From positions 1 to 64,000 of the forward strand of contig CAIRAY010000130.1 in NCBI GenBank assembly GCA_903876665.1: a stretch of DNA of 64,000 nucleotides, in the 5' to 3' direction. Positions 4,481 through 46,379 of this stretch are shown in pieces (the stretch's first letter is position 1; the number at the start of each line of letters is the position of its first letter). This stretch comes from an uncultured Fibrobacterota bacterium (GTDB lineage: Bacteria > Fibrobacterota > Fibrobacteria > Fibrobacterales > Fibrobacteraceae). The notes under the pieces were generated by a model. The model was not told the DNA's origin and did not search any database. It saw only the letters and a program-made list of their open reading frames with translations. Both the position numbers and the translations under genes were made by a program.

Positions 4481-7400
4481 ATGGCACATAGCAATCCGCG
4501 CGATAAAGTCCCGTGGATTTATCTTTCCATCCTGGCAAAATGCTTCGGGGTGGTTTTTCTGTTATCCGCCATGGTTCATTCGGCAACCTACACATGGGAT
4601 GCCAATGCAGCTCCTGGGTATCAACCGCCAGCTTCTGGGACTTGGGGAACCAATGCCTATTGGACGACGGATGGTACCAACTTGGTGGCTTGGCCAGGTG
4701 CGGGGAATGTGGCCCAATTTGACGGAGCCGATGGCACTTATGCGATTACGCTAAATGCGGTCACGGCCAATGGCTTGATTTTTAATTTCAATGGATATAC
4801 GCTAAGCGCGTCCACGCTGACTCTGAATGCTCCCGGGACTGTTTCGGTGAGCTCGGGGAAAACGGCAACCATTAGTTCCGTGATTAGCGGTGCGGTTGGC
4901 TTGACGGTAACGGGGCCCGGCACATTGGTGGTGAGTGGCGCGAACACTTACACGGGTGTGACCACCATCAGCGGGGGGGCCTCCCTCCAGATCGCCACCA
5001 TGCCCAATGGCGGTACCAATGGGCCTCTGGGTGCGGCAGCGGTGGCGGTGGATGCGGCCAACCTAGTGATCGACAATGGCACACTCAAACTGCAAAACAC
5101 CATCGCACAAACGAGCAACCGTCTGTTTACCATCGGCGATGGTGGTGCGACATTGAATGCACCAGGAACCACGGCTTGGAACTTGAGTGGCGCGGGTTCA
5201 CTCGGGCATACCGGCGCTGCCGCCCATACTTTGACCTTGACGGGTACCAATTCCGCAGCCAATACCATTTCGATTCCTGTCGTGGGCGACAATGGCGCAC
5301 AACCCACCTCGGTTGTCAAATCAGGAACAGGTTTGTGGACCTTGGGGGCTCTCAATACCTATACGGGAAGCACCACGATTTCAGGGGGTACCTTGAAAAC
5401 GACGGTACTTGCCAACGGTGGCGCGAATTCCAACATCGGTGCGTCAACTACCAATGCTGCGAACCTGCTGATTGATGGTGCAACTTTTCAAATTGCAGGA
5501 ACGGTCGCATCAAGCACCGATAGGCTGTTCACTGTGGGACTCTCGGGTGCCACTCTCGATGCCTCGGGCACTGGGGTGGGAACTGTTCAATGGACGAATA
5601 CCGGAACTGTGGCTTTTTCGGGTTCTGGCTCAAGGACTTTGACCTTGACGGGTACTTTGGCCTCAACAAATGTATTTGCCCCTCTCCTCGCCGATGATGG
5701 AGCCAATGCGACATCCCTGAGCAAAACAGGCACGGGCAAATGGATCCTGACCAACGATCACACCTTTTCGGGAACTGCCAGCGTGACCAGTGGTACTTTG
5801 CAGCTGGGCAATAGTGGCACCACAGGGAGCCTGCCTGGCAATGTGACGGTGACGAATCCAGGTAATCTGACTTTTGGGCGTTCCAATGGTGTGACCTGGA
5901 GCAATGTCATTTCGGGGAACGGAGCTGTGTCGAATGTGGGGACTGATACGGTGACCTTCACGGCCAACCAAACTTACACAGGGACGACCACAGTGGCTGC
6001 AGGGGCCACGCTGCAACTTGGCAATGGAGGCACCACGGGCCAGGTAGCAGGTAACATGAGCAATACTGGAACGTTGATCTTCAACCGCAGCAACGCTCAG
6101 ACCTACAGTGGGGTCATTTCGGGGGCGGGTACGGTCATCAAAAAGAACACCGACACCCTCACCTTAGGTGGAGCCAATACCTTTACGGGGCCTTTGTACA
6201 TCTTGGGTGGTGCAACCAAAGTCAGTGCCATTTCCTATCTGGGTGCCACCACTGCCGCTGCGAACCTGGTGATCGATGGCGGACTCCTTCGTTATTCGGG
6301 TGCTGCCGCATCTTCCGCCCGGCTTTTCACCATGGGCGACAACGGAACAACTATCGAGGCCAATGGCTCGGGAGCCTTGACTTTGTCGGCTGTCACGGCG
6401 ATTGCCCATACGGGGACCGCGGCCCACAACTTGGTGCTTGGTGGTACCCATACAGGCGCGAATGTCATGACCCCCATCATCGGCGATGGCGCACAAGCCA
6501 CCTCACTGACCAAGGTCGGCGCAGGGACCTGGAGCCTTGCCGGATTGAACACCTACACAGGTACCACCACCTTGAATGCAGGTATTCTGCAGTACACGAC
6601 ACTGGCCGATGGTGGCAACGCTTCAAGCCTGGGTGCCTCCACCGGGGCTGCATCCAATTTGTTGCTCAATGCGGGGACGCTCAAGTTTGCGGGCTCTTCA
6701 AACACATCGAGCAACCGTTTGTTTACCGTAGGCACTCCGGGCGCGAGCCTTGATGCCACAGGCACGGGCACCGCAGTGGTCTCTTTCACCAATCCAGGCA
6801 ATGTGGGTTGGTCGGGCGTAGGCACGCACACACTCACTCTCACGGGCACCAACACATACAACAATATTTTTGCACCACTCATTGCAGATGATGGCGCCAA
6901 TGCGACATCCCTCAGCAAAACAGCAACAGGCAAGTGGATTCTTACCAACGACCACACCCTCACGGGTACGGTGAGCGTCACCAGTGGTACCCTGCAGTTG
7001 GGTAATGGTGGCACCACCGGAAGTGTTCCTGGAAGCGTGACGGTGACAAATCCTGGAGTTTTGGCTTTTAATAAGACGGGTGAACGGATCTACACCCAGG
7101 GTATCACGGGCACGGGTGGCGTGGCGATGAATGGTACAGATACCTTGACCTTCCCCAACAATATGGTCTATACGGGAGCAACGACAGTCAACTCAGGCAC
7201 CTTGCGCTTGGGCGTGGGTGGCAAAACAGGAAGTGTTGCAGGAAGCATAACCAATAATGGCACGGTCCTTTTTGATCGTGGCTATGCCACAACCTATGCT
7301 GGAGTCATTTCTGGAACGGGCACGGTGATCAAAAAGGGGCGCGACACGCTCACATTGACTGGAACGAACACGCTTACAGGCACAACCCGTATTTTGGATG

Positions 7401-10400
7401 GCGTCCTTAGGCTGGGTGCAGCTGGAACAACGGGCTCCCTGGTCGGGAATATTGAAAACAATACGGTACTACTGTTCCAGCGCAACAATGCCATGAGCGC
7501 ATACTCCGGTGTGATCTCGGGACCCGGTCGGGTAGAAGTGAACAATGCCTCCATCACCACAATTCTAAGTGGATCCAACACCTATACCGGAAAAACAGAA
7601 GTGGTCAATGGAGTCTTGAACGTCCAGCATGCCAATGCCCTTGGATCATCCAGTGCCCCCACATTGATCTATCCAACAGCACGATTGCAATTGCAAAACA
7701 ATGTGACGGTTGCTGCTGAATCACTCTGGCTCTCCAGTTCCTACAATCCTGGTGCGATCTACAATGTGTCCGGCACCAACGCCTGGAATGGTCCTATCTA
7801 CATTGCGGACTCTGCCACTGTGGCCAATGTCTCGGGTTCTTTGACAATTGGTGGCACTTTATATGGTAACAGCCCATTTGTCATGAATAGCGGGGTAGTG
7901 CGACTATCGGGTTCTGGTCCTTATCAGGGCATGTTCCGAGTGACGTCAGGCGAAGCTCGCATTGACGGCAATTACCCCAATGCTGCTGGAGTCGTGGTTG
8001 CCAGTGCAAAGACTCTTTCGGGCTCAGGGGATGTCGCGGGCACAACAACCTTGTCGAACTATTCCACACTCTCGCCAGGAGCTGGTTCGGGAGCAACAGG
8101 CACATTGACTGTGGATCATCTTGTCCTTGCAGATACGAGCATTCTGGCCTTTGATCTTGGAAGTACCGCCAATCACGACCAGGTTGTTGTCCATGGGAAT
8201 TTATGGTTGAATGGACGTTTGCAGATCAATGCGCTGGGTGGTTTCGGAGAAGGGACATACCCACTGATCGATTGCGACGGTGCCGTGTTGAATAGTGGCT
8301 TAGTATTGGAAAGCTCTTTGCCCGGCTACACCTTGACTATCCAGGTGGCCGGTGGAGTGGTCAATCTGGTGGTCGTTGGAAGTTCGACAGGCTCAATGAC
8401 CTGGGATACCGATGTCACGGCAGGCTATCAGGCTGCAGCTGGAACCTGGGGCAGTGATAACTTCTGGACGAGTAATGGTACGGATCTGGTGGCATGGCCA
8501 GGCGCTGGCAACTCGGCTGTGTTTGCCGGAACAAGCGGCACATATGGAATTGCCGTCAGTGGCACTCAAACAGCAAGTGGACTTGATTTCCAAACCACAG
8601 GATATACTCTCTCGGGCGATACTTTGCTGCTTCAAGATCATACGGGTATTGTGGCTCGGAGTGGCGTGACTGCGATTCTTTCTAGTCCAGTCAAAATGGT
8701 GAGTGGCAACGCAAGGTTGTATGCAAGCAATACCGGTTACACCTCAAGTGGCACGTTACGCTTGTTGGGTGGACTCAATGCAGGGCTTGGCAATATTCAA
8801 TTGTATGGTCAAAATACCAGTGCTATCAAGGCGTATTACGAATGGCTGAGTGGCGAATACTCCGCACGGAATTTGTTCCTGGGCGGTTATACGGGGTCCT
8901 TGGTTTCGGGTGGACAGAATATGCAACTGATTTTAGGTGGCACCTCCCAAACTTCGATCACAGACACGATAATCCTGAATCAGGCGAACCAAAAGTTACT
9001 GCTCCAGGATAATGCCATCTTGGATGCCGGGTATGTCATCAATTCCGGCAATGCTCCTGAACTCCGGATTGGAGGCTTGAGCACCTTGCTTGCAAATCGC
9101 ATTGCCTTCACGCATGCCTCCAATGGATCCTTTTATCTGGATGGTGGACTTCTCAAGGCAAAAGGCGATGAAGCCAGTTTTATTTCTACCGCCGGCGGTA
9201 CGGTCAAGTTGACGTCTAACGGTGGCCGAATTGATGATGGTGGCTTTGCCGTGACGATCCCCTCCATCCTTGCCAGTACCGGTGGGCTTACCAAGACAGG
9301 TTCTGGAACCTTAACCCTGACGGCCGAGAATACCTATTCCGGTGGAACGCTGATCCAGGAAGGAATCTTGAAGCTTGGTAATGGATCCACCACGGGATTT
9401 GTTCAAGGTGACATTGTCAACAATGGACAGCTGGTGATTCATCGCTCCAATGGCGACACCCTCACGGGAGTTGTGTCGGGTACCGGCTCAATGGAATTGA
9501 AATTTGGAACTTCCCCGAACTATCTCGGTTTGATGGGTTCAAATACCTACACAGGTGCAACAGTCATTTCGCAGGGTGAAGTCTATTTGATGAATGCCAA
9601 TGGCTTAGGTTCTACGGTAGCTGGTACTACCATCAAAACAGGATCCAATTTGATTCTTTACGGTTTGACCTACGCTGCAGAATCTTTATGGGTTGATGGC
9701 GGTGGTATTCGAACAACAGCTTTGAATACACCTGGTGATCTTGATGTTCTGACAGGCTCTATCTACATCAGTAAGACACCCACCATTCGGGTAAATGATG
9801 TGGGAGACACCTTGATGCTTCAGGGAAATATTTCTGGTTCTTCCGGTTTCTTCAAGACGGGTTCAGGTATCGTCTGGATTCAAGGCGACTGTGGATTCGA
9901 TGGTCCGATTGTAGATAGTGCAGGAGCGCTGTGGATGGATTGTGAATCCTCAACCCTTGGCGAAATTTCTGTGCTAGGGGGTGCTGAGTTTGGTGGCTCC
10001 GGTAGTGTTGCAGGTGAGGTGAGGCTTGGTGCTCTCTCCATCTTGAATCCGGGTCCTGGCTTTGGTCGTATCAGTAAGCTCACGACAGGCTCCCTGACTC
10101 TTTCCGGCACATCCATTATTAAGATGGATGTAGGGTCACTCACATCTCATGACACCATTGACGTTCAAGGAAATTTACTTCTGAATGGAAGCTTGCAGCT
10201 ATCGACCATTCCTGGTTTTACCGCAGGTACCTACACTCTAATGACCTATTCAGGAACACTGACTGATAGTGGTCTGAGTGTCACATCGGTGCCGGTGGGT
10301 TATCAATGCTCCATTCAGGCTGGATCCGGCAAGGTAGACCTTGTGGTAACTCGCCAGGCGAAACTGTTCTGGGACACAGATGTGGCCTCGGGCTACCAGG

Positions 10401-13400
10401 CAGCTTCGGGCAACTGGGGAACCGACTCTTATTGGACAACCAATGGAACTTCACTGGGCGCATGGGTTGACTCGACCCATGCAGAATTTGCAGGGAGTGG
10501 TATTTCAACGCTTACGATAGTTGGAAACAAGTATTTGACGGGAATGTCTTTTCTGTCGGATGGATACACTCTGACAGGAGACAGTCTGATTTTTATCGGA
10601 GACTCGTCTCGAATCACTGCGGCATCTGGTGCAGAAGGAGTTGTTAATACGTCCCTCGCTTTCCCTAATGGCTCGCTTCTTGAAGTCCTTTGTACCGAAG
10701 CTGGTTACACACAGTCGGGCATTTTGACCTTTACCCAAGGGATCTGGGCTCCGAATGCCAAACTGGCATTGACCGGGAGTGGTGAAGGGAAAATTTCGGG
10801 TTACATCAACTTTTCAGGTGGAACAAGCAAACTGGGTCAAGTAAACCTTGCTTCCACGAGTGCGACTTCCATACGAACTGAATTGACCTTATCGGGCACA
10901 GCAAGCCTAGAACTCGATAGCCTGAACATGTATGGCTCTTACCAAAATGTGCAGTTGCTAGATAATTCCTATATGAAGGTGGGGCGCATCCGCTATAATG
11001 GTGGTTCCAGTTTTTATCTCAGTGGCAACAGTACCCTCGAAGCAAATAAGATCACATTCCTCAACACCAACAACAGGTTCTTCTTTGATGGTGGATTGCT
11101 GAAGGCAAGGTCTTCTGATTCATTGATGACCAGCACGGGTGCCACGGCAGTCATGGCCACAGGAGCGCGCATCGATGATGGTGGCTACACGGTCATTATT
11201 CCTTCGATTCTTGCAGATAAGCTAGGGCAGGTTGGAACGCTTACAAAAACAGGTTCTGGAACTCTGATTCTCACGGGGACGAATACATATACAGGGGCAA
11301 CGACCATTTCCGAGGGAACCCTGAAACTTGGTAATGGTGGTGCAACGGGAATCATCTCGAGCAATGTCTTGAATAATGGGGTATTGGAATTTAGTCAGTC
11401 ATTATCGCCAAATTATACCTTCGCCAAAACAATTTCAGGGACAGGGGATGTCGTAAAATCGGGGTCAAGTCAAGTTAGTTTGACTGTAGCAAACACCTAT
11501 ACGGGTAAAACGCGTATTCTAGCGGGTTCTCTCGGTGTCGCACATGCAACAGGGCTTGGTACCGCTACGGGAGTGACCGAGGTTAGCAAAGGCGCTCAGC
11601 TGGCCATTTGGGGTGGAGTGACAGTGGCTGCAGAGTCTTTGTACATCGCAGGGACTATATTGAATAGCTCTAGCGCTAATGCGTGGAATGGTCCTCTCCT
11701 TTTAACCGACACGGCATCAATCCAGATCCTTCTCGGAGCTTTGACATTGGGTGGGGAACTGATTGGAGCCAAGCCTCTTCAAGTTTCTGGAATACAACTC
11801 ATCATGAGCGGATCGGGAATATTTTCCGATGTGATCACATCAAATGCAAGTGAACTCAGACTCACCGGCAATTACCCCATGGCATCGCTCTTGCTCCAGC
11901 CTACGGGAATGCTCACAGGATCTGGATCTTTGGGCGGCATATTGAATGTTAGCCAACGTGGCATTCTTTCCCCGGGCAATTCCAATGTGGTGGGAACCTT
12001 GGGGACAATGACTGTGGGTGGCCTCACCCTTGCCGATACATCTAAACTCTGGATCGACCTTGCCACACCAGGAAGCAGTGATGTGATTGCTGTCAATGGC
12101 GATTTGGTTCTTGATGGTGAAGTGCTTTTGAACCCCATGACCGGCTTTGCTCCTGGTACCTATAACATTGCAACCTACACAGGAACTCTGACCGATCAAG
12201 GACTTCGAATTCTGTCGGCACCTGGTGGTTATTCCTATTCGGTAGTAGCTGGGGGCGGGATTGTTCAGCTCACTGTGTCCACCGATGCTCCGACACTACG
12301 CTGGGACATCTCAGGAACCGCCGGTTATCAGGATGGAAGTGGCACCTGGGGTGTAGACAACTTCTGGTCGAATGATGGAAGCACATTGGGAGCATGGGTC
12401 GACGGCTCGGAAGCTCTCATCGGTGGTTACGATAGTTCGTATGCAATTACCGTATCTGGAAACAAGAGCATTGCCGGTATCCGCTTTGGCTCCGATGGTT
12501 TCACCTTGACGGGAGACACATTGTTGTTGTCAAGTCCGGCTAGGATTGCGGTGGTGCCTACATCGAGTTACAATGCGGTGAGCGTCATTTCTAATCCCAT
12601 CAAGGCCACTAGCGTCAATCCGCTATTTGTCAGTGCGAACTATGGATATACAAAGTCAGGAACCCTGCGCTTGAAGGGAGGCCTCAATGCCACAGGGCAA
12701 ACCATCAAGCTCTATGGACAGGGCTTGAATGGAACCCAGAAAGGATACTATGAATGGATGGGTGGGACATATGGGGCTAAGACCTTGGAGTTTGGTGGTT
12801 ATGAGCCATTGATTTATGCGACCGCTGGTCAGAATGCTCAACTGACCATCGGGAGCACGTCCCAAGTTTCCATTTCCGATTCGATTGTCCATCGTTATGG
12901 GACCCAGAATCTGATCCTTTCGGATTCAGCCTATGTGTCCACAGGCATCTATTCCACAGCTTTCACCACAACCAACTTGACGGTGAAAGATCAAGCCGTT
13001 CTCGAAGTAAATAAACTCTCCATGGGTACCAATGCAGTCAGCTACTTCAATGGTGGCACCCTGCGCGCCCGTAGGGATGACGCATCCTTTGTCACTGCAG
13101 GTACACTTTTGCTGGGTGGCAATGGATTGCTCCTCGATGATGCGGGCTACCAGGTGGTGGTTACAGGAATCTTGGCAAGCGCAACCAACCAAACGGGCAA
13201 GCTGATCAAGTCCGGGATTGGATCGGTAACTCTCGCCTCAAACAACACCTTCATTGGTTTGACCCGCATTCTCGAAGGCGATTTGGCTATTGGCAATGGT
13301 GGCACAACGGGCTTGCTGGTCGGTGCGATTGAAAACTACGGAAATCTAAAACTCAACCGAAGCAATGTCGTGACCTTGCTGAGCAACATCTCCGGCACTG

Positions 13401-22400: not shown

Positions 22401-25400
22401 ACGTAGCAGTGTCTGGAAGCCAGCAGGTGGATGCAATTCAGTTCGACACCAGTGGCTACACCATTTCGGGTGACACCTTGGTGATGGGCACAAGCCCCTT
22501 GTTGGTTGCTGGAAGTGGCGATAGTGGGACCATATCCGCTTTTATCGATTCCAAGCTGGGTGATCTCGCTTTGTTCTCTGCTGATGTGGGCTATACCAAG
22601 TCTGGCTTGCTACGGCTTGAAGGCGGTTTGGATGCCACAGGGCATCGAATCAACTTCTTTGGTCAGGGAACCGCATCACTGTCGAATGTGAACTATCAAT
22701 GGATGGGCGGAACCTATAAAGCCAAAGAGGTCTCGCTGGGTGGCTATCCCTCCATGATCAATTTTTCGGAAGGTCAAAAAGTCAACCTTGTGATCGGTTC
22801 CAATTCGCAGGTCGGACTTTCGGGCGACATGTGGGCCGAAAGCGAGGGAGAATATGTCACCCTCCAGAATGAAGCATCCATGATTTTGGATCGCTTTAGA
22901 GGCTTCAACTATACCTACTTGACCATCAAGGATTCTGCAGTGCTTGAAGCCAATAGTCTTGAGCTCCATCCAACCATTTCGGGACTCCTGACTTTTAATG
23001 GCGGTACCCTCAAGGCTCGGCAGAGCAGCAGCGATTTCCTCGAAAACAATGTATCCGCAACGGTGACCATCAATGCGGGTGGTGCCAAGATCGATGTCTC
23101 GAGCTATGATGTGACGATCAACGCTGGCTTTATTGGAACCGGTGGGTTGACCAAGCTGGGCACAGGTGCTTTGACCATTGATGCCGACAATACTTATACA
23201 GGAACCACCACCATCGATGCTGGAACTCTGCAATTGGGAACTGGTGATACTACGGGTTCGGTTGTGGGAGCTATTGTGAACAATGGTATTCTTAGCATCA
23301 ACCGTAGGAATTTATGGCTCTTCAATCAAATCATCTCGGGTAATGGCTCCCTGATTCAGCAGGGGATTGGCTATTTGGCCTTGGGTGGCAAAAACACCTT
23401 CAGTGGCCGCTTCGACATTCTGGCAGGTGGTCAGGTCAATGCCCGTAGCGACAGCGCCTTGGGAACAACAGTTGGCCCCACATCCGTGGCATCCGGCGCC
23501 ACCCTGAAACTAGTCAACAACACAACCTTTGCACCCGAATCCTTATACCTTGCGGGCTCTGGCAAGAGTGGCCTGGGCGCCCTACAATTGGGCGAAGGCA
23601 ACACCCACTGGACCGGCCCCATTATCCTGACCGATAGCGCTTTATTCTATTTCTATGTCTACAATAAATATCATCGCATTAGCGGAGTGATTAGTGGCGC
23701 ATATCCACTTGTCATCAATGGACTTGGTGTGGGTAACTATTCCTTGGCCCTGGAGGCGGCAAATACTTATACGGGCAATACCCATTTACAGGCTGGTTCT
23801 TTGCTGGTCAATGGAAGCACCTCGCCTACCAGTACCATTTTTGTAAGCGGCATGGGAGTACTTGGCGGTTCAGGCACAGTGAGCGGGCCAGTGATGGTAT
23901 CTTCTGGCGGCACCCTTGCTCCGGGCGATACGGGTTCTACTGTAGGCACATTGACCTTGGGTAGCTTGCAGATGGATTCGGAATCCATGTTGAACTTTAC
24001 CTTAGGCTCCGTGGCGGGGAGCGACAAGATTGTGGTCAATGGAAATGTGGTGCTGGCCGGGGCATTGGCGGTGGATTCAATTGCTGGGTTCGATGCTGGG
24101 ACTTATACCTTGATGACTTGGACCGGTTCCGCAACGAACAATGGAATCTCGCTGGGCGCCATGCCCACTGGCTTCTCCTATTCTCTGCAGGTTGGTGCAG
24201 ACAAATTGACTCTCGTTGTAAACAAACGGACAACCCAAACCTGGGATCTCGCCACTCTTGCCGGCTTCCAGTCCGGGAGCGGCCATTGGAATATGGCAGG
24301 CGCGAGCTGGTCCATCGACGGAACCACCCTGGGTACATGGAACGATATTTCCCAAGTCGCAACCTTTGCCGGCACCCGGGGCAAATGGAGCGTGGTGCTG
24401 GATTCCAAACAGCAGGCCGCGGGCCTTGATTTTGTGAGCTCCGGATACACGCTCTCGGGCGATTCTCTCGTCCTCCTTGACCAGCCTTCCGTAGTGGCTC
24501 GTTCCGGAGTATCTACCACCATCGCGTCTCCAATACGAATCGCCAATGGACCTCTGCAACTTTATGCATCTAACACCGACTATACCGCCCAATCGAGTCT
24601 CCAATTCAGCGGAGGCATTGATGCCAGTTCCACATCCATTCTATTCTACGGGAAAAATTTAGGTGCACCCACTGCGGCATATAACCTCTCTGGTGGCACG
24701 GTGCGTGCCAAGCAACTGGCGCTCGGGGGCTACTCTGCAACGGCGATGCCCACCAAGGCTGCTGGACTAAGTCTAGTTCTCGGTGGAACCGTTCAGGTTA
24801 ATGCGGATACCATTTCTATTGGAGGTGAGTCTCAAATCTTGACCATTCAAGATACAGCCTTGGTTGAGGCGGGCTTGCTTTCAGGTGGCGTAACAACCTC
24901 TCAAGTATGGATTCAGGACAATGCAGTCCTTAGCTTGGGAAGCCTACGCTGGAGTCGTTCGGCTTCTGCCCTGCAATTGAATGGCGGAACCTTGCGCGCA
25001 TTACGTTCAGGCACTGATTTTATTACTGCAAGTGCGGGAGACTTATTGACGGTTACCTCCTTGGGTGGAACCCTGGACGATGCCGGTTTCGATGTGACTT
25101 TGCGTAGTGGCATGGGTGGTTCGGGAACCCTGATAAAACAGGGTTCAGGCTCCGTCACCCTAGATTCGAGCTGGTCGCATACGGGTGCATTGGCTCTCGC
25201 TGCAGGCCGTCTTATTCTCAACGGAGCCACATTGAATTCAGCCTCCTTAGCCATTTCAAATGGCGCAACTCTTGAGGGACATGGTTCTGTTTTGGGTTCG
25301 GTCACCATGGCGGCGGGTTCGGAGATTGTATTGGACTCTGTCGGGAATGGCCCGTTCCAACTGGGTTCCCTTTCCATGAACTCAACGAGTACGATCACTA

Positions 25401-28400
25401 TTCCTGTCTATGGCAGTGGCCTCGAAGCACAAGTTTTGATTGGCGAAAATCTCATTCTTGACGGTACTCTGCAGTTCAGTATTGGCTCAGGCTTCGGTCA
25501 GTTTACTGACACCTTGATGCAGGTGACAGGAACCATCGACAATCGAGGGCTCCTTTGTGGCGCAGTTCCTTCGGGTTACACCTGTCAGGTCCAGGTCATG
25601 GGCAAGGCCGTGGTCGTCTCTGTGCTGGGACGCCAATTTCACTGGGACGTGGCAGGTACTGCGGGTTACCAAACCGGAAGCGGAATTTGGGGCGTGAATC
25701 CTTATTGGAGCGATAATGGAACGAGCCTGAACGTTTGGCCCGTAGCGAGTGGCACGGCCACATTCCCAGGGCCTGATGGCTCTTACAATATTCAACTCTC
25801 GGGTACCCAGAATGCCGATTCGATCTTCTTTACTGCGAATGGTTACACCTTAAGTGGCGACACGCTGCAGCTCTCTTCAGCAGCTATTATAGATGTCTCA
25901 GCTCTAGATACTACAACTGTTTCTGCCAGTCTCGTTAAGGGGTTTGGCACTGTAAAGACGGGCGCAGGTCACCTTCGCCTGACGGGTAACGCCCAATTTA
26001 CGGGAACAATGCAAGTTCAAGCAGGCTCTCTATCTGTGGATGGCAGCGTGACTGGTTCCGATAGCATTTTTATATCCAATGGGGCAACACTTTCGGGAGC
26101 TGGAACAATCTCGGCTCCAGTGTCCTTGGCATCTGGTGCCCAATTACTTCCGAGCAGCATGATGACCCTGGGTGGTTTACGCATGAATGCGGGTTCGACG
26201 ATTCGTCTGCAAGTTGGAAGTATTGCGAACACCACGCGTATTACCAGCACGGGTGCAATAGGGCTTGCCGGAACACTTTTCATAGATTCTGTTGCAGGCT
26301 TTGGCCAAGCCTTGACCTTGTTGATGACATCGACCCAAACCATATCTGGGTTGCCCACCTTGCAAGGCATTCCCACCGGTTGGACATCATCGCTGATTCT
26401 TCGCAATGATAGTCTTTGGCTTAAGCTAAACCAACCTCAGCCCCCAACAGGCATCGCCTTTTCTGATACCGTGGTGAATGAGAATACGGCAAATCCTTAT
26501 GCCCTGGCGGTTCTGTCTGCAATGGATCCAAATTCTTCTGATTCATTCATTTATAGTCTGGTCGCAGGAAGTGGATCCACGAACAACAACCTTTTCCACA
26601 TTAGTAACGACACGCTTTGGCTTGATTCATCAGTAGATTTCGAAACGATTTCGAATCTATCTGTACGCATCAAGGTGACCGATAGTGATCTCCTTGCTTT
26701 TGAGAAAACTCAAACGATTTCGGTATTGAATCTGAACGACAACGCCCCAGTCATTACTTCTAACGGCGGAGGCGCTACGGCCACCGTCAACATCTCGGAG
26801 AACACCACCGCTGTCACAACAGTCACTGCGACCGATGCCGACGGAACCTCGCCCACATTTGCCTTCAATGGCGGTGCCGATGAAGCGATTTTCGCAATCA
26901 ACGCCACCACGGGCGCACTCACATTCATCACGGCACCGGACTTCGACGCTCCCGCAGATGCCAATGCAGACAACATCTACACCGTGATCGTTCGCGCAAG
27001 TGATGGAATCCTTAACAGCGACCAGACCTTTACCATTACCGTAACCGACCTGAATGAAAGCCCGGTAATTTCCCGGCTTGAAGCCTTTCCGGCCAGTATT
27101 TTAATGACCCTCGGTGATACTGCCGATCTGGAAGCAAGATTCTTCGACACCTTTGGAACTCAGGTGGACACCATTCCTTCCGATCTTCGCTTCACGATGG
27201 AGACATCCCACATAGGCAAGCTCATTCGCAACACTCTCGTCACTTCCGACACCGGTCGCACACAAATTATTGTGACCGCGCTTGGCTTGCGCGACACCAT
27301 TTCAGTAATCGTCAAGCCCGATTCGATCATCGTAGTCCACGATACGATTCAAGTCCCGATTGGCATGGGCGTGGTCCTGATCATTCCTCCTTCCACAAAG
27401 CCATGGAATATTCAATCGGTTGCCGTGGCCAATGCGGGCCAAGATGGCATTCAGGGGGCATTATCCATCCAAATTGGATCGAGTAACGGAGCATTGCCGG
27501 CAACATTAATGGCCACCATTCCTACCGATACTCTCGCCAAACTGGCAGGTTCGGCGCAGGTCTATCTCCTGATGCAAAATGGCTCCCTCCAAAGACTTCC
27601 TTCTACCTCCTCCATCCTGGGCCTTTCCTTCAACACGGCCTCCCAGGGTACCTACCTGGTGGGCTATGACTCCGTTCCCCCGACCGTAACCCTCGAAGGC
27701 GAAAACCAACTCCTCCACCATGGCGGAAACCTTCAGCTCGGCTACCTGCTCGAGGATAACATTTCAAATCCCACACTACTGCTCCATTATCGCCTGCCCG
27801 GCGACACCACCACCCACACCATGCCCGCAAGAATTTCTAGTGATGGATCCCTGGTGGTGGACTCCACATTGCTGGCCTTGGGCGCAACCCTTTGGATCGA
27901 AGGTTCCGATGGAGTGCACCAATCCAAATCCACCCCCATTGATGTCACCGCAATTCTGCCCCCCCAGGATTTGCCAGGAGCCCTCCCTGATGCCCACTAC
28001 GGCATGTTTGCCGTGCCCTACCAAAATGGAGAGGCAACCGTGCTGGATATGCTTTCGGCAAAGCTCGGCAAATACAACCCCTCCAAATGGCGCGCTTACC
28101 TGACCCATGACGAGACCTATTCCGAAATTTCGGATTTCGACTCGCTCCGCTCCAAGCCCGGTCAAGCCTATTGGATCCGCATTCAAGGAATCAACCCATC
28201 CTTCCGTACCGACTCTCTCTCCACCTACCCGCTCAGTAAATCGACTCCAATCATCCTCAATCCCGGCTGGAGCGCCATCTCCAGTCCATTCGATTTCGAT
28301 GTAAGCTGGAAGGACATCCAGACCGCAAGCGGAATCCCCTCCGCTGCCTTGAAAGGCCCATACGCATACGAGGGAACGACGGGTGCATGGAGTCGTCCCG

Positions 28401-29221
28401 ACACCACCAACCGCATCCGGGCATGGCAAGGTTACCTGGTCAAAAATACGACTTCCCAGCCCGTAACCCTGCAGGTGCAGAACCTGAGCTACGATGCCAC
28501 GCGCAGCTTGGCGAGGTCCTCGGTGCAAAACACCCTCTGGACCCTCACTCCAAGCCAGGGAAGTGCAGAAGGCGCCTCGGCTTTTGCCGGAATCCATGCC
28601 CAGGCATCCATGGGCCCGGACTCCCTTGACCAGCCCTTCCCGCCCATACTGGAGCGCAGGCTAGCCGCTTCGTTCCGCACAGGGGATGGAACCTCCCTCT
28701 TGCACGATATGCGCCCCTCCGCGACCCTGAAGGAATGGTCTCTCAGCGTGCAAAACCTACAACCCAACACCCCCCTCACTCTGGCCTTCGCAGGACAAGT
28801 CACGACACCGGACAACCGTAAGCCATGGTTGCTCGAACGGAAGGGCCAAGCCCTCCACAGCCTAAAAAACGGAAGCGTCCGGATTGCTGTGGGTAGCGAA
28901 TCCAAGCGGGAATTTGCTTTGGTATTTTTAACCGACGATGAGGCTCTGCAAATGAATTCCCTCGTGCGGAACACTTTAAAACCGATTGCGAATTACCGAC
29001 AGCAAACGGCGTCCTGGACTCTCCCCGCCTCCATTCAAAATGCCTGGGTCCGCGTATCCATCACGGACGTGCGGGGCAGGATTGTGGCCCAACTCGCCAA
29101 TGAACGTCAGGATGCCGGATCCTATAGCGCCTTGATCCCACCCGGCCTAAACCTGCGGAACCCGGCATACAGGCTTGTACTTCAGGTGAATGGCAAATCC
29201 TATGTTGGAACGGGGGAATGA
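4481..29221 (+). CDS. Giant secreted PATR-repeat adhesin-like protein (8246 residues)
   Basis: One uninterrupted frame of 24.7 kb. Residues 1-35 form a long signal peptide (charged start, hydrophobic core, cut near HSA). Residues 39 to about 7320 are eleven large units, each opening with a W-D...G-(Y/I/F)-Q...G-x-W motif and containing autotransporter-associated beta-strand repeats (TIGR02601/PF12951 type: G-x-G-x-L-x-L, N-T-Y-T-G, G-T-L-x-L-G-N-G). Two cadherin-like modules follow (about 7325-7520, with NDNAPV and DLNESPV linkers), then an Ig-like region, a module with the LNPGW / SSPFDF motif (about 7826-7930), and a C-terminal beta-sandwich (about 8160-8246) with the pattern ITDVRGRIV. The last two resemble domains of type IX secreted proteins. 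There is no beta-barrel translocator, so this is not a classical autotransporter. PATR passengers form beta-helices; attachment to cells or plant fibre is the inferred role. Cysteines are rare. Confidence 0.85.
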   Translation: MAHSNPRDKVPWIYLSILAKCFGVVFLLSAMVHSATYTWDANAAPGYQPPASGTWGTNAYWTTDGTNLVAWPGAGNVAQFDGADGTYAITLNAVTANGLIFNFNGYTLSASTLTLNAPGTVSVSSGKTATISSVISGAVGLTVTGPGTLVVSGANTYTGVTTISGGASLQIATMPNGGTNGPLGAAAVAVDAANLVIDNGTLKLQNTIAQTSNRLFTIGDGGATLNAPGTTAWNLSGAGSLGHTGAAAHTLTLTGTNSAANTISIPVVGDNGAQPTSVVKSGTGLWTLGALNTYTGSTTISGGTLKTTVLANGGANSNIGASTTNAANLLIDGATFQIAGTVASSTDRLFTVGLSGATLDASGTGVGTVQWTNTGTVAFSGSGSRTLTLTGTLASTNVFAPLLADDGANATSLSKTGTGKWILTNDHTFSGTASVTSGTLQLGNSGTTGSLPGNVTVTNPGNLTFGRSNGVTWSNVISGNGAVSNVGTDTVTFTANQTYTGTTTVAAGATLQLGNGGTTGQVAGNMSNTGTLIFNRSNAQTYSGVISGAGTVIKKNTDTLTLGGANTFTGPLYILGGATKVSAISYLGATTAAANLVIDGGLLRYSGAAASSARLFTMGDNGTTIEANGSGALTLSAVTAIAHTGTAAHNLVLGGTHTGANVMTPIIGDGAQATSLTKVGAGTWSLAGLNTYTGTTTLNAGILQYTTLADGGNASSLGASTGAASNLLLNAGTLKFAGSSNTSSNRLFTVGTPGASLDATGTGTAVVSFTNPGNVGWSGVGTHTLTLTGTNTYNNIFAPLIADDGANATSLSKTATGKWILTNDHTLTGTVSVTSGTLQLGNGGTTGSVPGSVTVTNPGVLAFNKTGERIYTQGITGTGGVAMNGTDTLTFPNNMVYTGATTVNSGTLRLGVGGKTGSVAGSITNNGTVLFDRGYATTYAGVISGTGTVIKKGRDTLTLTGTNTLTGTTRILDGVLRLGAAGTTGSLVGNIENNTVLLFQRNNAMSAYSGVISGPGRVEVNNASITTILSGSNTYTGKTEVVNGVLNVQHANALGSSSAPTLIYPTARLQLQNNVTVAAESLWLSSSYNPGAIYNVSGTNAWNGPIYIADSATVANVSGSLTIGGTLYGNSPFVMNSGVVRLSGSGPYQGMFRVTSGEARIDGNYPNAAGVVVASAKTLSGSGDVAGTTTLSNYSTLSPGAGSGATGTLTVDHLVLADTSILAFDLGSTANHDQVVVHGNLWLNGRLQINALGGFGEGTYPLIDCDGAVLNSGLVLESSLPGYTLTIQVAGGVVNLVVVGSSTGSMTWDTDVTAGYQAAAGTWGSDNFWTSNGTDLVAWPGAGNSAVFAGTSGTYGIAVSGTQTASGLDFQTTGYTLSGDTLLLQDHTGIVARSGVTAILSSPVKMVSGNARLYASNTGYTSSGTLRLLGGLNAGLGNIQLYGQNTSAIKAYYEWLSGEYSARNLFLGGYTGSLVSGGQNMQLILGGTSQTSITDTIILNQANQKLLLQDNAILDAGYVINSGNAPELRIGGLSTLLANRIAFTHASNGSFYLDGGLLKAKGDEASFISTAGGTVKLTSNGGRIDDGGFAVTIPSILASTGGLTKTGSGTLTLTAENTYSGGTLIQEGILKLGNGSTTGFVQGDIVNNGQLVIHRSNGDTLTGVVSGTGSMELKFGTSPNYLGLMGSNTYTGATVISQGEVYLMNANGLGSTVAGTTIKTGSNLILYGLTYAAESLWVDGGGIRTTALNTPGDLDVLTGSIYISKTPTIRVNDVGDTLMLQGNISGSSGFFKTGSGIVWIQGDCGFDGPIVDSAGALWMDCESSTLGEISVLGGAEFGGSGSVAGEVRLGALSILNPGPGFGRISKLTTGSLTLSGTSIIKMDVGSLTSHDTIDVQGNLLLNGSLQLSTIPGFTAGTYTLMTYSGTLTDSGLSVTSVPVGYQCSIQAGSGKVDLVVTRQAKLFWDTDVASGYQAASGNWGTDSYWTTNGTSLGAWVDSTHAEFAGSGISTLTIVGNKYLTGMSFLSDGYTLTGDSLIFIGDSSRITAASGAEGVVNTSLAFPNGSLLEVLCTEAGYTQSGILTFTQGIWAPNAKLALTGSGEGKISGYINFSGGTSKLGQVNLASTSATSIRTELTLSGTASLELDSLNMYGSYQNVQLLDNSYMKVGRIRYNGGSSFYLSGNSTLEANKITFLNTNNRFFFDGGLLKARSSDSLMTSTGATAVMATGARIDDGGYTVIIPSILADKLGQVGTLTKTGSGTLILTGTNTYTGATTISEGTLKLGNGGATGIISSNVLNNGVLEFSQSLSPNYTFAKTISGTGDVVKSGSSQVSLTVANTYTGKTRILAGSLGVAHATGLGTATGVTEVSKGAQLAIWGGVTVAAESLYIAGTILNSSSANAWNGPLLLTDTASIQILLGALTLGGELIGAKPLQVSGIQLIMSGSGIFSDVITSNASELRLTGNYPMASLLLQPTGMLTGSGSLGGILNVSQRGILSPGNSNVVGTLGTMTVGGLTLADTSKLWIDLATPGSSDVIAVNGDLVLDGEVLLNPMTGFAPGTYNIATYTGTLTDQGLRILSAPGGYSYSVVAGGGIVQLTVSTDAPTLRWDISGTAGYQDGSGTWGVDNFWSNDGSTLGAWVDGSEALIGGYDSSYAITVSGNKSIAGIRFGSDGFTLTGDTLLLSSPARIAVVPTSSYNAVSVISNPIKATSVNPLFVSANYGYTKSGTLRLKGGLNATGQTIKLYGQGLNGTQKGYYEWMGGTYGAKTLEFGGYEPLIYATAGQNAQLTIGSTSQVSISDSIVHRYGTQNLILSDSAYVSTGIYSTAFTTTNLTVKDQAVLEVNKLSMGTNAVSYFNGGTLRARRDDASFVTAGTLLLGGNGLLLDDAGYQVVVTGILASATNQTGKLIKSGIGSVTLASNNTFIGLTRILEGDLAIGNGGTTGLLVGAIENYGNLKLNRSNVVTLLSNISGTGNLYLQNVNDKTLSGTNSFTGLSQVTGGRVLVANALAFGSETGPTLVDSGATVELMNNVSVAAETLMVKGVGLADRGALRISSTVSSAAWNGPILLQDSTLFRAAGARLSLGGVISGAFPLAIMDSLPNHTVVLNGQNTYTGNTHLLSGTLEVNGSLASTSTLLASSGTTLQGSGNVQGAVTLTGSVLSPGSGQGSVGTLTLGSLTMDTLSSLMMDVGSLASSDRIVVSGNALLQGKLVLNPLAGIQSATYTLLSTVGTLTNNGIELSSLPSGWSGSLSVVGKELRLTLSKATVMTWDAFGSTGIQAGSGSWGSDAFWTADSLSRGTWPGAGNSALLAGSPGSYAITIAGAQNVEGIHFATAGYVVGGDSILTSTNSVFKAGSGVHAYLNAPVRAEADVDWIASDGLYKAPAIFEASGGLNAPNHLLRMYGRRAGRFPATYIISGGFTRIDEAFVGGYSYAGTGSSNGPAYLGAKQANLMIKGSGTQVTADTIHFTSDSNSIVVKDSALLQVSVLTSPFATTRLEATNGAIVETYSLFSNGLTNTILFNGATLRAATSGPTSTWNYVSYATSRINVGSDGMVVDIPLSIQNKVIRSGIGNATGQVGWLRKTGLGQLNLVTSTCTGPIYIDAGTLLLNNLTSSFVQNNGVFSLNAQSASTVSSLISGIGTLNKIGNSTITLSGNNTYTGSTDIQYGTLILAHSNALGSTSGRTILNTGATLSFSGGQVVPAETLMVANNQNMQAYLDISDKTATWGGPILVNDSLTFAGNGNYHLYGGLTILGKLSGASPLKVTGGTFILFNDSNSYTGDIVVNGGRFRVKGVLPARSMTVSTGALQGVGYIQSSVDMQNATLSPGMGEASAGTLTTDALQLASTSVLRYDLGDTATSDRILVKGDVILDGSLIINEAMPGLRTARYLILEAQGRLVDNGLVLTQLPSGMQANIVVIESKLYLDVVAPNYRIWDIASTAGIQGGTGIWDASSTLWTADSLTRMTWPGASANAVFAGDSGSNLVTVQGSKQLQSIDFLSKGYTLTGDSLYIDGLSSIVAKSGITGEIDAPIRVLNDTLNLVSSGPNYTQSGSLIFRGGINDSNGRIRLFSSGGSIYYSNYSFLGDASYLARVIELGGYSGTDAAGLSINQLINLTIGGKAHMVADSLWHRHDWHNVYLQDSAHLVLGSWFEPMSTPGLKVSGASLFEVRDMRVGSGGSWVGGLKLDGGTVKPRESTSSWFVGSHTLAFGLTSNGGTIDVGTYDVIMGTGLTNAPSSVGWFRKAGAGTLVLNLDNSATGISTVAAGTLRLGNGSATGGFTGSLIDSSVVEFKRSGTASHAGTISGPGEVKLTGTAAITFTGANTYSGTTTVSSGRYVVGNASALGSALGRTTVASGAEIQLEPNMVVAQESLFVSGTGASGVGALRTTSGASEWNGPIHVQDSVTAYISGSLSLGGNIVGSGSLNLLSGTLAMSGAASYSGATQAKAATLVMHGSLSSPLGVFLKQSAGLVGSGSIVGPVVLDASANTLSPGTGLTGLGSISTLTVGSLVLGDSSILAFDLARTDSSDLVQVNGNLVLNGQLQIQAPADLPAGTYTLFTYTGTLTDNNVVLTKLPSGYGCNLTVGAGVVSLVVTASTRIAWDLSNTAGYQAGSGVWGAVANWSQDGVSRQTWPGSGNLALLGGSNGSHSVTVSGNQNVDGLEFSARGYVVSGDTLLLGSYPALTVLNGIYATISAPLSSPNANVSLISTGKGYTSNSTLTLSGGLHAGTGNIDLFGQGYGTQKGYYVWNGGAYSAQNIRLGGYPGLANTLNQNIAWTLGGNSMVTVQDSLRFYGSNQQVTLQNNATLSSPQVMIEDGSTLLVRDSAVLESKKIVSLSNSTSLTLNGGTLRALDDDSNFVSLVTGKAITLGSYGGVIDDAGHRIMIPYVIQGNGALTKAGTGRLIFTTYQPYTGTTTVQAGILQLGNYGLSGNVAGAIVNNGTVELRHTSGTAILAGVVSGTGGILQHGTTTWILQGNNTFSGDYDFQQGTLVLSHGNALGSSMGYTKVGTGATLKLATSMVVEAESLWIEGVKLSGIPALSYPDSSVTWNGPIHLDDSCVFSGDSGSLTLGGNLSGYGPLLLNAGDVVLSGHATYLGTTWLTAGSLRVDGILDSQLVVEDASLLGGGEIKGNVRLKRSNLAPGTGLNASLDTLTVGSLVLESSDTIYLDISEPGIHDQIVVDGSLQLAGVIKINAYGRPSGDYEIITYQGTLKLGSVQLIAPAQIQASLVYESGKVILRLPAQSYLTWDLANAAGYQDGDGNWSDANWTTNGTTRGIWTSGAVAVLEGSQTGDTITVTSPTTVSGIRVNHSDVLVGDTLLMTGTPAILSGFKDTIRIDNPIRTLDADLIIGSSGEGYDTATVFPSRIHTAFNGSIDAGDHDIILYGQIPSRHNANFYGTVKARNLRLGGYRGQSTPQSQNSSFSIGGTAVITDSIILVDTNNTLSIPGNVRASVVYVDYPKVSSTYQIIVIDTGRLDVGQLVLAKPNSRLNLGGTLGALQDDTNFVTGATGSKLIFQRTNSGGGVMSNATFTIDDSGHTVHINLPMSDSTSQVGTFYKKGSGTLVLGDTTSFLGGIVIENGTLQVGKGGLKGSLTGTVTNNGVLRYNRADTTLFSNEISGTGDLEVAGSGRLALSRANPFTGDVYVDSGASLSLRHVKSLGTSQGATHVRKSGHLEIYGDLVMASETLYVAGSGPYSSVYASYLGALGGYRWNPRWDGPIVLTDSTTFSSFDVSYLNISGSISGSYPLGTIGWVTRPLRLGGQNTYTGNTHVSSEMVLDGSLASQSTVYVHNNGTLSGGGVAYGHVVIENGARLDPYTILVDHSRIPAKLTLGSLAMDSAAYFEMTLGTLSDTVSVLGNALVQGQLRITEGAGFAAGSYVLVDCGGTLDYQGLSILSAPKGFAVALSVVGNKLMLDVTPLTSYTWDVADAAGIQSGNGTWGVDGNWSAQGTGARTAWAGSGSTARFAGSSGTWNVAVSGSQQVDAIQFDTSGYTISGDTLVMGTSPLLVAGSGDSGTISAFIDSKLGDLALFSADVGYTKSGLLRLEGGLDATGHRINFFGQGTASLSNVNYQWMGGTYKAKEVSLGGYPSMINFSEGQKVNLVIGSNSQVGLSGDMWAESEGEYVTLQNEASMILDRFRGFNYTYLTIKDSAVLEANSLELHPTISGLLTFNGGTLKARQSSSDFLENNVSATVTINAGGAKIDVSSYDVTINAGFIGTGGLTKLGTGALTIDADNTYTGTTTIDAGTLQLGTGDTTGSVVGAIVNNGILSINRRNLWLFNQIISGNGSLIQQGIGYLALGGKNTFSGRFDILAGGQVNARSDSALGTTVGPTSVASGATLKLVNNTTFAPESLYLAGSGKSGLGALQLGEGNTHWTGPIILTDSALFYFYVYNKYHRISGVISGAYPLVINGLGVGNYSLALEAANTYTGNTHLQAGSLLVNGSTSPTSTIFVSGMGVLGGSGTVSGPVMVSSGGTLAPGDTGSTVGTLTLGSLQMDSESMLNFTLGSVAGSDKIVVNGNVVLAGALAVDSIAGFDAGTYTLMTWTGSATNNGISLGAMPTGFSYSLQVGADKLTLVVNKRTTQTWDLATLAGFQSGSGHWNMAGASWSIDGTTLGTWNDISQVATFAGTRGKWSVVLDSKQQAAGLDFVSSGYTLSGDSLVLLDQPSVVARSGVSTTIASPIRIANGPLQLYASNTDYTAQSSLQFSGGIDASSTSILFYGKNLGAPTAAYNLSGGTVRAKQLALGGYSATAMPTKAAGLSLVLGGTVQVNADTISIGGESQILTIQDTALVEAGLLSGGVTTSQVWIQDNAVLSLGSLRWSRSASALQLNGGTLRALRSGTDFITASAGDLLTVTSLGGTLDDAGFDVTLRSGMGGSGTLIKQGSGSVTLDSSWSHTGALALAAGRLILNGATLNSASLAISNGATLEGHGSVLGSVTMAAGSEIVLDSVGNGPFQLGSLSMNSTSTITIPVYGSGLEAQVLIGENLILDGTLQFSIGSGFGQFTDTLMQVTGTIDNRGLLCGAVPSGYTCQVQVMGKAVVVSVLGRQFHWDVAGTAGYQTGSGIWGVNPYWSDNGTSLNVWPVASGTATFPGPDGSYNIQLSGTQNADSIFFTANGYTLSGDTLQLSSAAIIDVSALDTTTVSASLVKGFGTVKTGAGHLRLTGNAQFTGTMQVQAGSLSVDGSVTGSDSIFISNGATLSGAGTISAPVSLASGAQLLPSSMMTLGGLRMNAGSTIRLQVGSIANTTRITSTGAIGLAGTLFIDSVAGFGQALTLLMTSTQTISGLPTLQGIPTGWTSSLILRNDSLWLKLNQPQPPTGIAFSDTVVNENTANPYALAVLSAMDPNSSDSFIYSLVAGSGSTNNNLFHISNDTLWLDSSVDFETISNLSVRIKVTDSDLLAFEKTQTISVLNLNDNAPVITSNGGGATATVNISENTTAVTTVTATDADGTSPTFAFNGGADEAIFAINATTGALTFITAPDFDAPADANADNIYTVIVRASDGILNSDQTFTITVTDLNESPVISRLEAFPASILMTLGDTADLEARFFDTFGTQVDTIPSDLRFTMETSHIGKLIRNTLVTSDTGRTQIIVTALGLRDTISVIVKPDSIIVVHDTIQVPIGMGVVLIIPPSTKPWNIQSVAVANAGQDGIQGALSIQIGSSNGALPATLMATIPTDTLAKLAGSAQVYLLMQNGSLQRLPSTSSILGLSFNTASQGTYLVGYDSVPPTVTLEGENQLLHHGGNLQLGYLLEDNISNPTLLLHYRLPGDTTTHTMPARISSDGSLVVDSTLLALGATLWIEGSDGVHQSKSTPIDVTAILPPQDLPGALPDAHYGMFAVPYQNGEATVLDMLSAKLGKYNPSKWRAYLTHDETYSEISDFDSLRSKPGQAYWIRIQGINPSFRTDSLSTYPLSKSTPIILNPGWSAISSPFDFDVSWKDIQTASGIPSAALKGPYAYEGTTGAWSRPDTTNRIRAWQGYLVKNTTSQPVTLQVQNLSYDATRSLARSSVQNTLWTLTPSQGSAEGASAFAGIHAQASMGPDSLDQPFPPILERRLAASFRTGDGTSLLHDMRPSATLKEWSLSVQNLQPNTPLTLAFAGQVTTPDNRKPWLLERKGQALHSLKNGSVRIAVGSESKREFALVFLTDDEALQMNSLVRNTLKPIANYRQQTASWTLPASIQNAWVRVSITDVRGRIVAQLANERQDAGSYSALIPPGLNLRNPAYRLVLQVNGKSYVGTGE
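4586..26446 (+). repeat. Eleven-unit protein repeat array within the giant gene
   Basis: Unit starts (the Trp of the W-D motif) lie at 4595, 8402, 10370, 12302, 14288, 16283, 18281, 20222, 22253, 24242 and 25643. Units 2-9 are 644-677 residues each; unit 1 is about 1270, unit 10 about 470 and unit 11 about 270. A complete unit has five parts in order: W-D...W header with G-Y-T-L-S-G-D; a GGL...LYGQ segment; a DSI/LQDNA segment; a LNGGTLRA...IDDAGY segment leading into PATR repeats; and a closing TLSPG / D-x-I-x-V-x-G-N / G-T-Y-T-L / LVV segment. The DNA has diverged enough between units that they are old duplications rather than recent copies. Confidence 0.8.
5200..7500 (+). repeat. Internal duplication making unit 1 twice the normal length
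   Basis: Two stretches about 1.2 kb apart match closely: near 5716-5860 and 6910-7055 the protein repeats the pattern SLSKT-x-TGKWILTNDHT followed by TSGTLQLGN and VTVTNPG. The segments ahead of them (near 5215 and 6417) also correspond, with the shared pattern GLNTYTG or ALNTYTG. An internal segment of about 400 residues therefore appears twice in tandem. Confidence 0.65.
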
Positions 29222-29313: not shown

Positions 29314-30165
29314 ATGACCTCGGCAGATTCAAATATTCAGGGAGAACTCCCCTCCATCTACGGATACATCGATTTCCGTGCCTATTTGTCCGATTATCAA
29401 AAAGCACGCGTAGAGTGGGATCCCGATTTTAGTGGAAGCGGGATTTCCCGTTTGCTCGGAATGCCCAACACCCGGAGCTACTTTTCCGACGTCATCAAAG
29501 GCCGCAAGGTTTCAACGACGTTCGTAGAACGATTCGTGGAGCTTTTTCGCCTCGATGACCACGCCGGCCGGTTTTTCCGTGCCTTGGTCAAATGGAACCA
29601 AGCGGACTACCAGGAGGACAAAGAGGCCTGTTTTGAACAGCTCGTGGCCCTCAACCGAACCCCCCGTCGCGACCTTCTCCTTCAGGAATACCGCTATTAC
29701 AAGGACTGGCACAACAGCGTGATCCGCGCTATCCTCAATTTGCACGACTTCCGCCAAGAAGACTGCAAGGCCCTGGGAGCCACGGTAATTCCCGCTATTT
29801 CTGCGCACACCGCCCAGGAATCCTTGGATTTGCTGCTCGAAATGGGCCTTATCGCGGCCAATCCTGAGGGGTTCCTCAAGCCCACGCAAAACTGTATCAC
29901 CAGTGGTGGCTACGCCAAAGACGAGATCATCCGGCAATACCAGCTCCAGTGCCTGGAGGCTGCGAAGCGGACGATTATCCAAGGAGTTGAAACCCCCCAC
30001 AATGTTTCGACCAATATTATTTCCGTTAGTAAAAAGGGTTACTCCCGCATTGAAAAACGCATGCAAAAATTTAAAGAAGAAGTTCGCTCCATCGTCCACA
30101 AGGACGCAGACCTCACCGATCGCATTTACCAAATCACCTTGACTTTACTACCATTAAGCAAATGA
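29314..30165 (+). CDS. TIGR02147-family (DUF4423-like) putative regulator
   Basis: 283 residues, soluble, no signal peptide. The N-terminus (YGYIDFRAYLSDYQK) and the following segment with GISRLLGM and FSDVIKGRKVS match the TIGR02147 family, whose N-terminal half looks like a degenerate helix-turn-helix for DNA binding. The central block (KWNQADYQEDKEACFEQL, then YYKDWHNSVIRAIL) is also characteristic. The family is expanded in Fibrobacter succinogenes and occurs in a few other phyla; its members are thought to be regulators, but I know of no experimental proof. It lies 92 bp after the giant gene, and its stop overlaps the next start (ATGA), so it is cotranslated with the lipoprotein that follows. 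No strong terminator or promoter is visible in the 92-bp gap, so read-through from the giant gene is possible. Confidence 0.75.
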   Translation: MTSADSNIQGELPSIYGYIDFRAYLSDYQKARVEWDPDFSGSGISRLLGMPNTRSYFSDVIKGRKVSTTFVERFVELFRLDDHAGRFFRALVKWNQADYQEDKEACFEQLVALNRTPRRDLLLQEYRYYKDWHNSVIRAILNLHDFRQEDCKALGATVIPAISAHTAQESLDLLLEMGLIAANPEGFLKPTQNCITSGGYAKDEIIRQYQLQCLEAAKRTIIQGVETPHNVSTNIISVSKKGYSRIEKRMQKFKEEVRSIVHKDADLTDRIYQITLTLLPLSK

Positions 30166-32366: not shown

Positions 32367-32426
32367 AACCAACCCTAAAAATGAATCTCCTCAAAACAAT
32401 CTACACTCCGAGGTTAGATTTACAGC

Positions 32427-45860: not shown

Positions 45861-45863
45861 ACT

Positions 45864-46379
45864 TTAATGTCCATTTTGAAAGGTTAAACCTGCGCGAATT
45901 TTCCCGGTCCGCAACCACACCGTATCGGGAGTAATCCCTTCAATCCGCGAGGCTCCAAGCAATGCACCCGGTTTCAGCCAGCGACCATCGATCAGGGCAA
46001 GTTGTCCACCCGGACCCAGCGCGACAGCCTGCAAAATGGGTCGCGGAGAATGCTTTTTGCCTTTGGCGACCTTTTTCAGAATCACCTTTTCCCGGGGTAA
46101 ATCCTCCTTGCCCAATATCCAGTTGGGAATCTCCCCTTGGCGAGCTTCGGCAAAAAAGGGATTGCGGTTGGCTTTGCGCTTCCACATGATGGAATCGATG
46201 ATTCCTCGCGAAGCAGTATCCAATTCCCGCACCGCAGAATCCGGTGAAACGGGGGTAACAGCCAAGGGCGATTCCTGGAAAATTTGCCTTTGCGCAGGCC
46301 AAAAAGACCACAACAAATTGGCTACGGCAACCACCGTAATCACCACAACAACCTTGGGATTTCGCAATAGCCCCCTCAT
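45864..46379 (-). CDS. PilP/GspC-like inner-membrane protein
   Basis: 171 residues from the ATG at 46379, which overlaps the previous stop as ATGA; another in-frame ATG at 46391 would add four residues. One N-terminal membrane segment (about residues 8-24, Val/Ala rich) is followed by a linker with two short basic clusters. A C-terminal beta domain of about 60 residues (I-L-Q-A-V-A-L-G, then L-I-D-G-R-W-L-K-P-G, then I-T-P-D-T-V-W-L) has the pattern of the homology region of GspC and PilP, which docks on the secretin N-domains. It should bridge the inner-membrane platform to the secretin encoded next. Similarity is structural in pattern and weak in sequence. Confidence 0.7.
   Translation of the reverse strand: MRGLLRNPKVVVVITVVAVANLLWSFWPAQRQIFQESPLAVTPVSPDSAVRELDTASRGIIDSIMWKRKANRNPFFAEARQGEIPNWILGKEDLPREKVILKKVAKGKKHSPRPILQAVALGPGGQLALIDGRWLKPGALLGASRIEGITPDTVWLRTGKIRAGLTFQNGH

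Follow-up and report, generated by a model that had tools for sequence, protein, structure and literature searches.

How does a very large surface protein leave the cell when it is built from PATR repeats and lacks a translocator barrel of its own? The question is raised by a 64,000-nt stretch of DNA (hereafter the window) from an uncultured Fibrobacterota bacterium of the family Fibrobacteraceae, whose assembled genome comprises 4.32 Mb in 192 contigs and is 92.9% complete. PATR repeats (PF12951/TIGR02601) are the hallmark of a subtype of type Va autotransporters, and a first-pass annotation of the window had described the protein as a giant β-helix adhesin exported by another route, an uncommon combination. 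We examined the architecture of the protein, the translocators encoded in its genome, and the C-terminal ends of its relatives.

A modular protein of 8,246 residues

The open frame at positions 4481–29221 (+) runs for 8,246 codons without an in-frame stop, and a stop codon lies immediately upstream of its ATG; the product had been annotated as intact, and it is. The computed mass is 843 kDa and the pI of the whole chain is 5.1. At this size the protein is large, yet PMC12057145 cites proteins that are far longer, at ~85,800 aa. DNA-level repeats inside the gene have diverged (the longest is 207 nt at 79%), so its length is probably real and an assembly artefact through repeat collapse or expansion is unlikely. 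GC and AT skews flip sign within the gene (window positions 8000–26000) relative to the remaining window, probably owing to G/T-rich PATR codons.

The N-terminus (4481–4585, +), which holds the most hydrophobic 15-mer of the protein, is predicted to resemble a signal peptide, with a basic n-region, the core ILAKCFGVVFLLSAM, and a plausible cleavage site at VHS-A, judged by inspection only. A LAKC/LAKF motif opens the signal-peptide core here and in PATR and cadherin proteins at three other loci (L031, L167, and L172), giving SILAKCFGVV, SILAKCVGMA, PLLAKCVLIF, and SLLAKFLIGF in this genome; the motif could possibly mark an extended signal-peptide type.

Scanning the protein in thirds, we found 15, 9, and 4 stretches of PF12951 (28 in all; whole-chunk E-values 1.3e-61, 2.2e-34, and 2.4e-15) and 15, 11, and 5 stretches of TIGR02601 (31 in all; best E 1.2e-68 with NCBIfam). 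Both profiles thus recover the repeats, and the earlier estimate of about thirty was right. The passenger divides into eleven modules, a feature absent from the first-pass annotation, each of which begins with WDxxxxxG(Y/I/F)QxxxGxW (starts at residues 39, 1308, 1964, 2608, 3270, 3935, 4601, 5248, 5925, 6588, and 7055). Module 1 (aa 39–1307; 4595–8401, +) is long and, by repeat and Pfam scans, the most PATR-rich. Modules 2–9 (aa 1308–6587; 8402–24241, +) are eight full-length units of 644–677 aa each with WD..YQ..W starts, and modules 10 and 11 (aa 6588–7316; 24242–26428, +) are shortened. Mean column identity is 43% in an alignment of 10 of the 11 modules.

An AlphaFold2 model of module 2, for which the other modules served as the alignment, is all-β with a mean pLDDT of 86. 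Its best Foldseek matches are a metagenomic β-helix and autotransporter passengers (IgA1 protease, Ag43, pertactin, and Ssp). With a best E-value of 4.5e-5, which is modest, and an overlap that is only partial, these matches support a β-helix and no closer kinship. The β-helical passenger proposed at the outset is therefore supported at the level of the model. When a complete module was used to search GTDB genomes, no relative emerged; a 49-aa PATR core did give matches.

Two cadherin-like domains follow the modules (aa ~7321–7521; 26441–27043, +), in line with the cadherin-like end described initially: PF00028 matches two stretches (E 3e-10), and both PDB profiles and fold comparison return cadherins. 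After them come a region of ~600 aa and a terminal β-sandwich. The region (aa ~7538–8156; 27092–28948, +) is common to Fibrobacterota proteins with type IX secretion system (T9SS) tails. The last ~500 aa of the giant protein align over their full length with 17 proteins from its own genome and relatives; G, W, and P columns are invariant across these 18 sequences, and TIGR04183 is carried by 12 of them, with canonical ends of the form NPFNP..DxxGR..KKMxLxK. Foldseek with a model of the C-terminal part was dominated by the cadherins and uninformative about the tail.

PATR repeats, barrels, and other export signals

No barrel family matched any third of the protein in Pfam or NCBIfam. At E≤0.1, the 92.9% complete genome contains neither the autotransporter barrel PF03797 nor the two-partner translocator TpsB (PF03865), the latter being absent also from the neighbours scanned in the window, and the first 3,000 aa of the protein have no Pfam match to the N-terminal TPS domain (haemagglutination activity domain) at the same threshold. 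The statement that the protein lacks a β-barrel thus holds for protein and genome alike. As the protein carries no barrel and the genome was found to encode no TpsB partner, another export route is indicated, as had been suggested; that route is most likely the T9SS.

To ask how common PATR repeats without a barrel are, we took a single genome from each species, searched it with the 49-aa PATR core, and obtained 80 named loci, a sample that is biased to close core matches, counts loci rather than independent origins, and is grouped into phyla by record titles. Among proteobacterial proteins with the C-terminus in hand, 39 of 44 end in a PF03797 barrel. The barrel is found in 5/24 of the other proteins, which come from Verrucomicrobiota, Planctomycetota, one Flavobacteriales, and one Fibrobacter sp.; nine of these 24 carry a PEP-CTERM signal and two a Por_Secre_tail. 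As 19 of the 24 lack PF03797, PATR without a barrel is ordinary outside Proteobacteria, and the combination can no longer be called uncommon.

The same holds within the phylum. Strong PATR matches occur in 8 of 60 other Fibrobacterota genomes, in frames of up to 5,997 aa. Four PATR proteins with complete C-termini there (L185, L187, L190, and L193) have T9SS-type tails, as does L123 from the scan of named loci; the frames of the five measure ~1,950–3,820 aa. TIGR04183 scores two of these tails above its cut-off of 23 bits (L193, 31.5; L123, from Fibrobacter sp., 27.8) and three below it at E≤0.0014 (L190, 22.0; L187, 19.5; L185, 18.6). These proteins resemble the giant protein in joining PATR repeats to a T9SS-type tail, but they are shorter and their tails lie nearer the canonical form. 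The pairing recurs in Fibrobacterota, which explains the missing barrel, as such proteins in this phylum end in type IX secretion tails; the giant protein is a very large, tail-divergent example of a recognisable kind.

Comparison with other PATR proteins is consistent with this placement. Like the type Va autotransporters IcsA and ShdA, the giant protein has many PATR repeats and a β-helix passenger, but it is much longer, and where they have a C-terminal β-barrel it has cadherin domains followed by a sorting tail. Like the Verrucomicrobiota and Planctomycetota proteins, it combines the absence of a barrel with a C-terminal sorting signal, but theirs is PEP-CTERM (exosortase) and its own is T9SS-type; neither PF07589 nor TIGR02595 matches the giant protein, and it has no hydrophobic C-terminal helix. 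PATR is thus a component of β-helices that occurs together with three or more kinds of export signal (barrel, PEP-CTERM, and T9SS tail), and for this reason an "autotransporter" annotation from PATR alone is unsafe outside Proteobacteria. Here the repeats are β-helix building blocks, uninformative about a type V route. A literature search on TIGR02601 and TIGR04183 returned no TIGR02601 paper among the matches listed.

A divergent tail and the type IX components of the genome

The terminal β-sandwich (aa ~8170–8246; 28988–29218, +) is best described as a divergent T9SS-type sorting tail, with a pI of ~10 and without the canonical K-rich last β-strand. Tested directly, the TIGR04183 profile gives no match on it at E≤1 and PF18962 gives none either, and the label "sorting-domain-like" therefore required indirect evidence. 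In hhalign, the tail group of the window protein matches canonical type-A tails with a probability of 92.5% (E 5e-7); the match spans 41 columns centred on the region of the DxxGR core. An HMM built from the other tails of the same genome gives a marginal match to the last 150 aa (14.5 bits, E 0.003; best shuffle, 10.9 bits). The tail-family profile also matches the PorU CTD (6za2; E 0.007); FlgD Ig domains match the family better than PorU does, which means that fold by itself cannot be taken as diagnostic. The original proposal of a sorting-domain-like sandwich accordingly stands as far as homology to T9SS tails goes (the hhalign match and the 12/18 members with TIGR04183) and fails in the TIGR04183 search itself.

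The tail is strongly basic, at pI 10.3 against 5.1 for the whole protein. In cellulases of F. succinogenes S85, a basic C-terminal domain (the "basic terminal domain") has been proposed as the T9SS signal (PMC6851124), and the basic tail of the giant protein matches that description. Its end departs from the canonical form: the protein finishes in ..LQVNGKSYVGTGE, and the usual last strand is missing. Where canonical tails end in ..KKMxLxK, the giant protein ends in …YRLVLQVNGKSYVGTGE, and the alignment sets ..GKSYVGTGE against that motif. Secretion in P. gingivalis depends on the C-terminal motif, and RgpB lacking two residues stays periplasmic (PMC11285876).

The divergence appears to be shared. 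Together with its five closest relatives, of which two lie in its own genome (L008 and L009) and three in the class (L035, L036, and L048), the window protein seems to form the part of the family with diverged tails; as NCBIfam output consists of counts only, the alignment and the negative scan of the window protein are the basis for this assignment. The tails of PATR paralogues on four other contigs of the genome (C179, C29, C43, and C111) also miss TIGR04183. Within the subfamily formed by the window protein and those of C126, C13, G040, and G042, the tails are diverged yet complete, a pattern that suggests a drifting signal and not a lost one. Separately, several secreted-looking proteins of the genome stop at (F/Y)(D/N)LLGR plus at most ~7 residues, as if keeping only the first strand of a tail (L168:1–1515, +; L169:8606–10615, +; L169:12817–14808, −; L169:14812–15999, −).

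The genome encodes an intact SprA translocon (a 2,299-aa frame; 809 bits, scored with its neighbours) and a PorU relative of 1,387 aa (E 1.8e-103), which lies under the model's curated cut-off, as in most relatives; PorU matches occur in 60 of the 61 genomes of the phylum. The GldM profile TIGR03517, which may be Bacteroidota-specific, has no match in the 92.9% complete genome. The coexistence of SprA and a PorU relative without a GldM match would fit a motor of another kind, or one that has diverged too far. TIGR04183-like places number 39 at E≤1, ten of them above the cut-off; this threshold is permissive, since matches also arise in 13 of 14 control genomes, one of them above the cut-off, so only the strong places count.

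A weak TIGR04183-like tail lies within the window, 8 kb from the giant gene, on an RGL11 rhamnogalacturonan lyase (36836–39283). Between the two genes, a member of the Fibrobacter-type paralogous family TIGR02147 (DUF4423; 29314–30165, +) starts 93 bp past the stop of the giant gene, followed by a GH5 cellulase (31140–32372) and a class I adenylate cyclase (32427–34421, +; PF12633 E 2.3e-39, PF01295 E 4.8e-34). The TIGR02147 gene, the pattern seen in relatives, and the Fibrobacter sp. locus L123 point to Fibrobacteraceae as the family of the genome. The cellulase and the lyase fit a fibre-degrading organism and are no proof of the function of the giant gene. Class I adenylate cyclases are associated mainly with Gammaproteobacteria; this one sits in a Fibrobacteraceae-like genome. 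Further along, profile scans place secretin, T2SSF, and T2SSE/MshEN genes with unnamed frames between them at 44427–52146 (−), which we read as a putative locus for type II secretion or for a type IV pilus. At 60087–63047 (−) they place a protein of 987 aa that carries six DUF349 stretches along with HEAT-like repeats.

Export of the giant protein and its alternatives

The presence of SprA and PorU, the C-terminal homology to T9SS-tailed proteins, the profile match of the tail, and its basic pI make T9SS export the best explanation: the giant protein is probably a surface-anchored β-helical fibre and T9SS cargo, not an autotransporter. It resembles T9SS type A cargo (TIGR04183/PF18962; the basic-terminal-domain enzymes of F. 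succinogenes S85) in its signal-peptide-like N-terminus and its basic β-sandwich tail with a DxxGR core, in the SprA and PorU of its genome, and in having homologues with canonical tails. It differs in that its tail fails TIGR04183 and lacks the terminal strand, and in that the passenger is a PATR β-helix, not an enzyme. The weak points of assigning the protein to the T9SS are the TIGR04183 miss, the absent last strand, the lack of a GldM match, and a genome that is 93% complete.

In the main rival explanation the tail has decayed: the protein would be made and exported by Sec, but T9SS secretion would no longer be efficient because the terminal strand is lost, leading to build-up in the periplasm or to a lineage that is losing the protein. 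The early stop before the final strand motif, the TIGR04183 miss, and the block of T9SS secretion by C-terminal truncations in P. gingivalis (PMC11285876) all point this way. A frame kept intact over 24.7 kb is, however, hard to reconcile with a lack of selection, the tails of the whole subfamily are diverged but complete, which suggests drift, and the basic charge has been retained; we consider decay unlikely.

A dedicated partner other than TpsB could instead export or anchor the protein. A pair of genes for a barrel-like protein of ~510–550 aa and a lipoprotein of ~290 aa adjoins PATR proteins at C43 (L168, L031) and C111 (L167); in another genus (G006, L180) the pair comes right after a tail-bearing protein that is truncated at the edge of its contig, and a fourth copy in the genome, at C189 (L179), has no PATR neighbour. 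This lone pair could serve the giant protein, and such a role gains from the conservation of the trio at three loci of the genome and one in another genus and from the lack of a significant Pfam match in the barrel-like protein. Yet BLAST of the frames in the window found no member of the pair, the barrel is putative, judged by eye from the C-terminal strand, and its gene is confined to 2 of 61 genomes, in contrast to the widespread C-terminal family and T9SS, which leaves this partner slightly less probable than decay. Least probable by far, and already largely refuted, is the reading that the protein is a genuine passenger of an autotransporter or two-partner system, its translocator having been overlooked or having fallen into a gap of the assembly. 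The PATR repeats themselves and the likeness of the module fold to autotransporter passengers speak for it, but the genome yielded neither PF03797 nor PF03865 at E≤0.1, the protein already ends in a different conserved domain, and PATR proteins of relatives have T9SS-type tails.

If T9SS export applies, the protein would cross the inner membrane by the Sec pathway through its N-terminal signal peptide, and the SprA-type translocon, whose components are present, would then recognise the folded basic β-sandwich of the tail. PorU would remove the tail and attach the C-terminal end, placing the cadherin domains near the membrane with ~7,100 residues of PATR β-helix pointing outward as a long stalk, which might adhere to insoluble substrate or to neighbouring cells. 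An adhesin function is plausible from the predicted cadherin domains and β-helix.

A broader and more tentative possibility, which we rate well below T9SS export as such, is that some surface proteins of Fibrobacterota, forming a sub-branch, share a C-terminal signal that has diverged: it is basic and keeps a DxxGR core but lacks the canonical last strand. The T9SS reading it would have SprA and PorU and no recognisable GldM motor, the 843-kDa β-helix being among its largest cargoes. If so, the giant protein would allow the requirements of the translocon to be examined. If displayed, the protein would be a candidate for a long adhesive stalk in a family of plant-fibre degraders, and through its worn tail the minimum T9SS signal could be probed in a phylum other than Bacteroidota.
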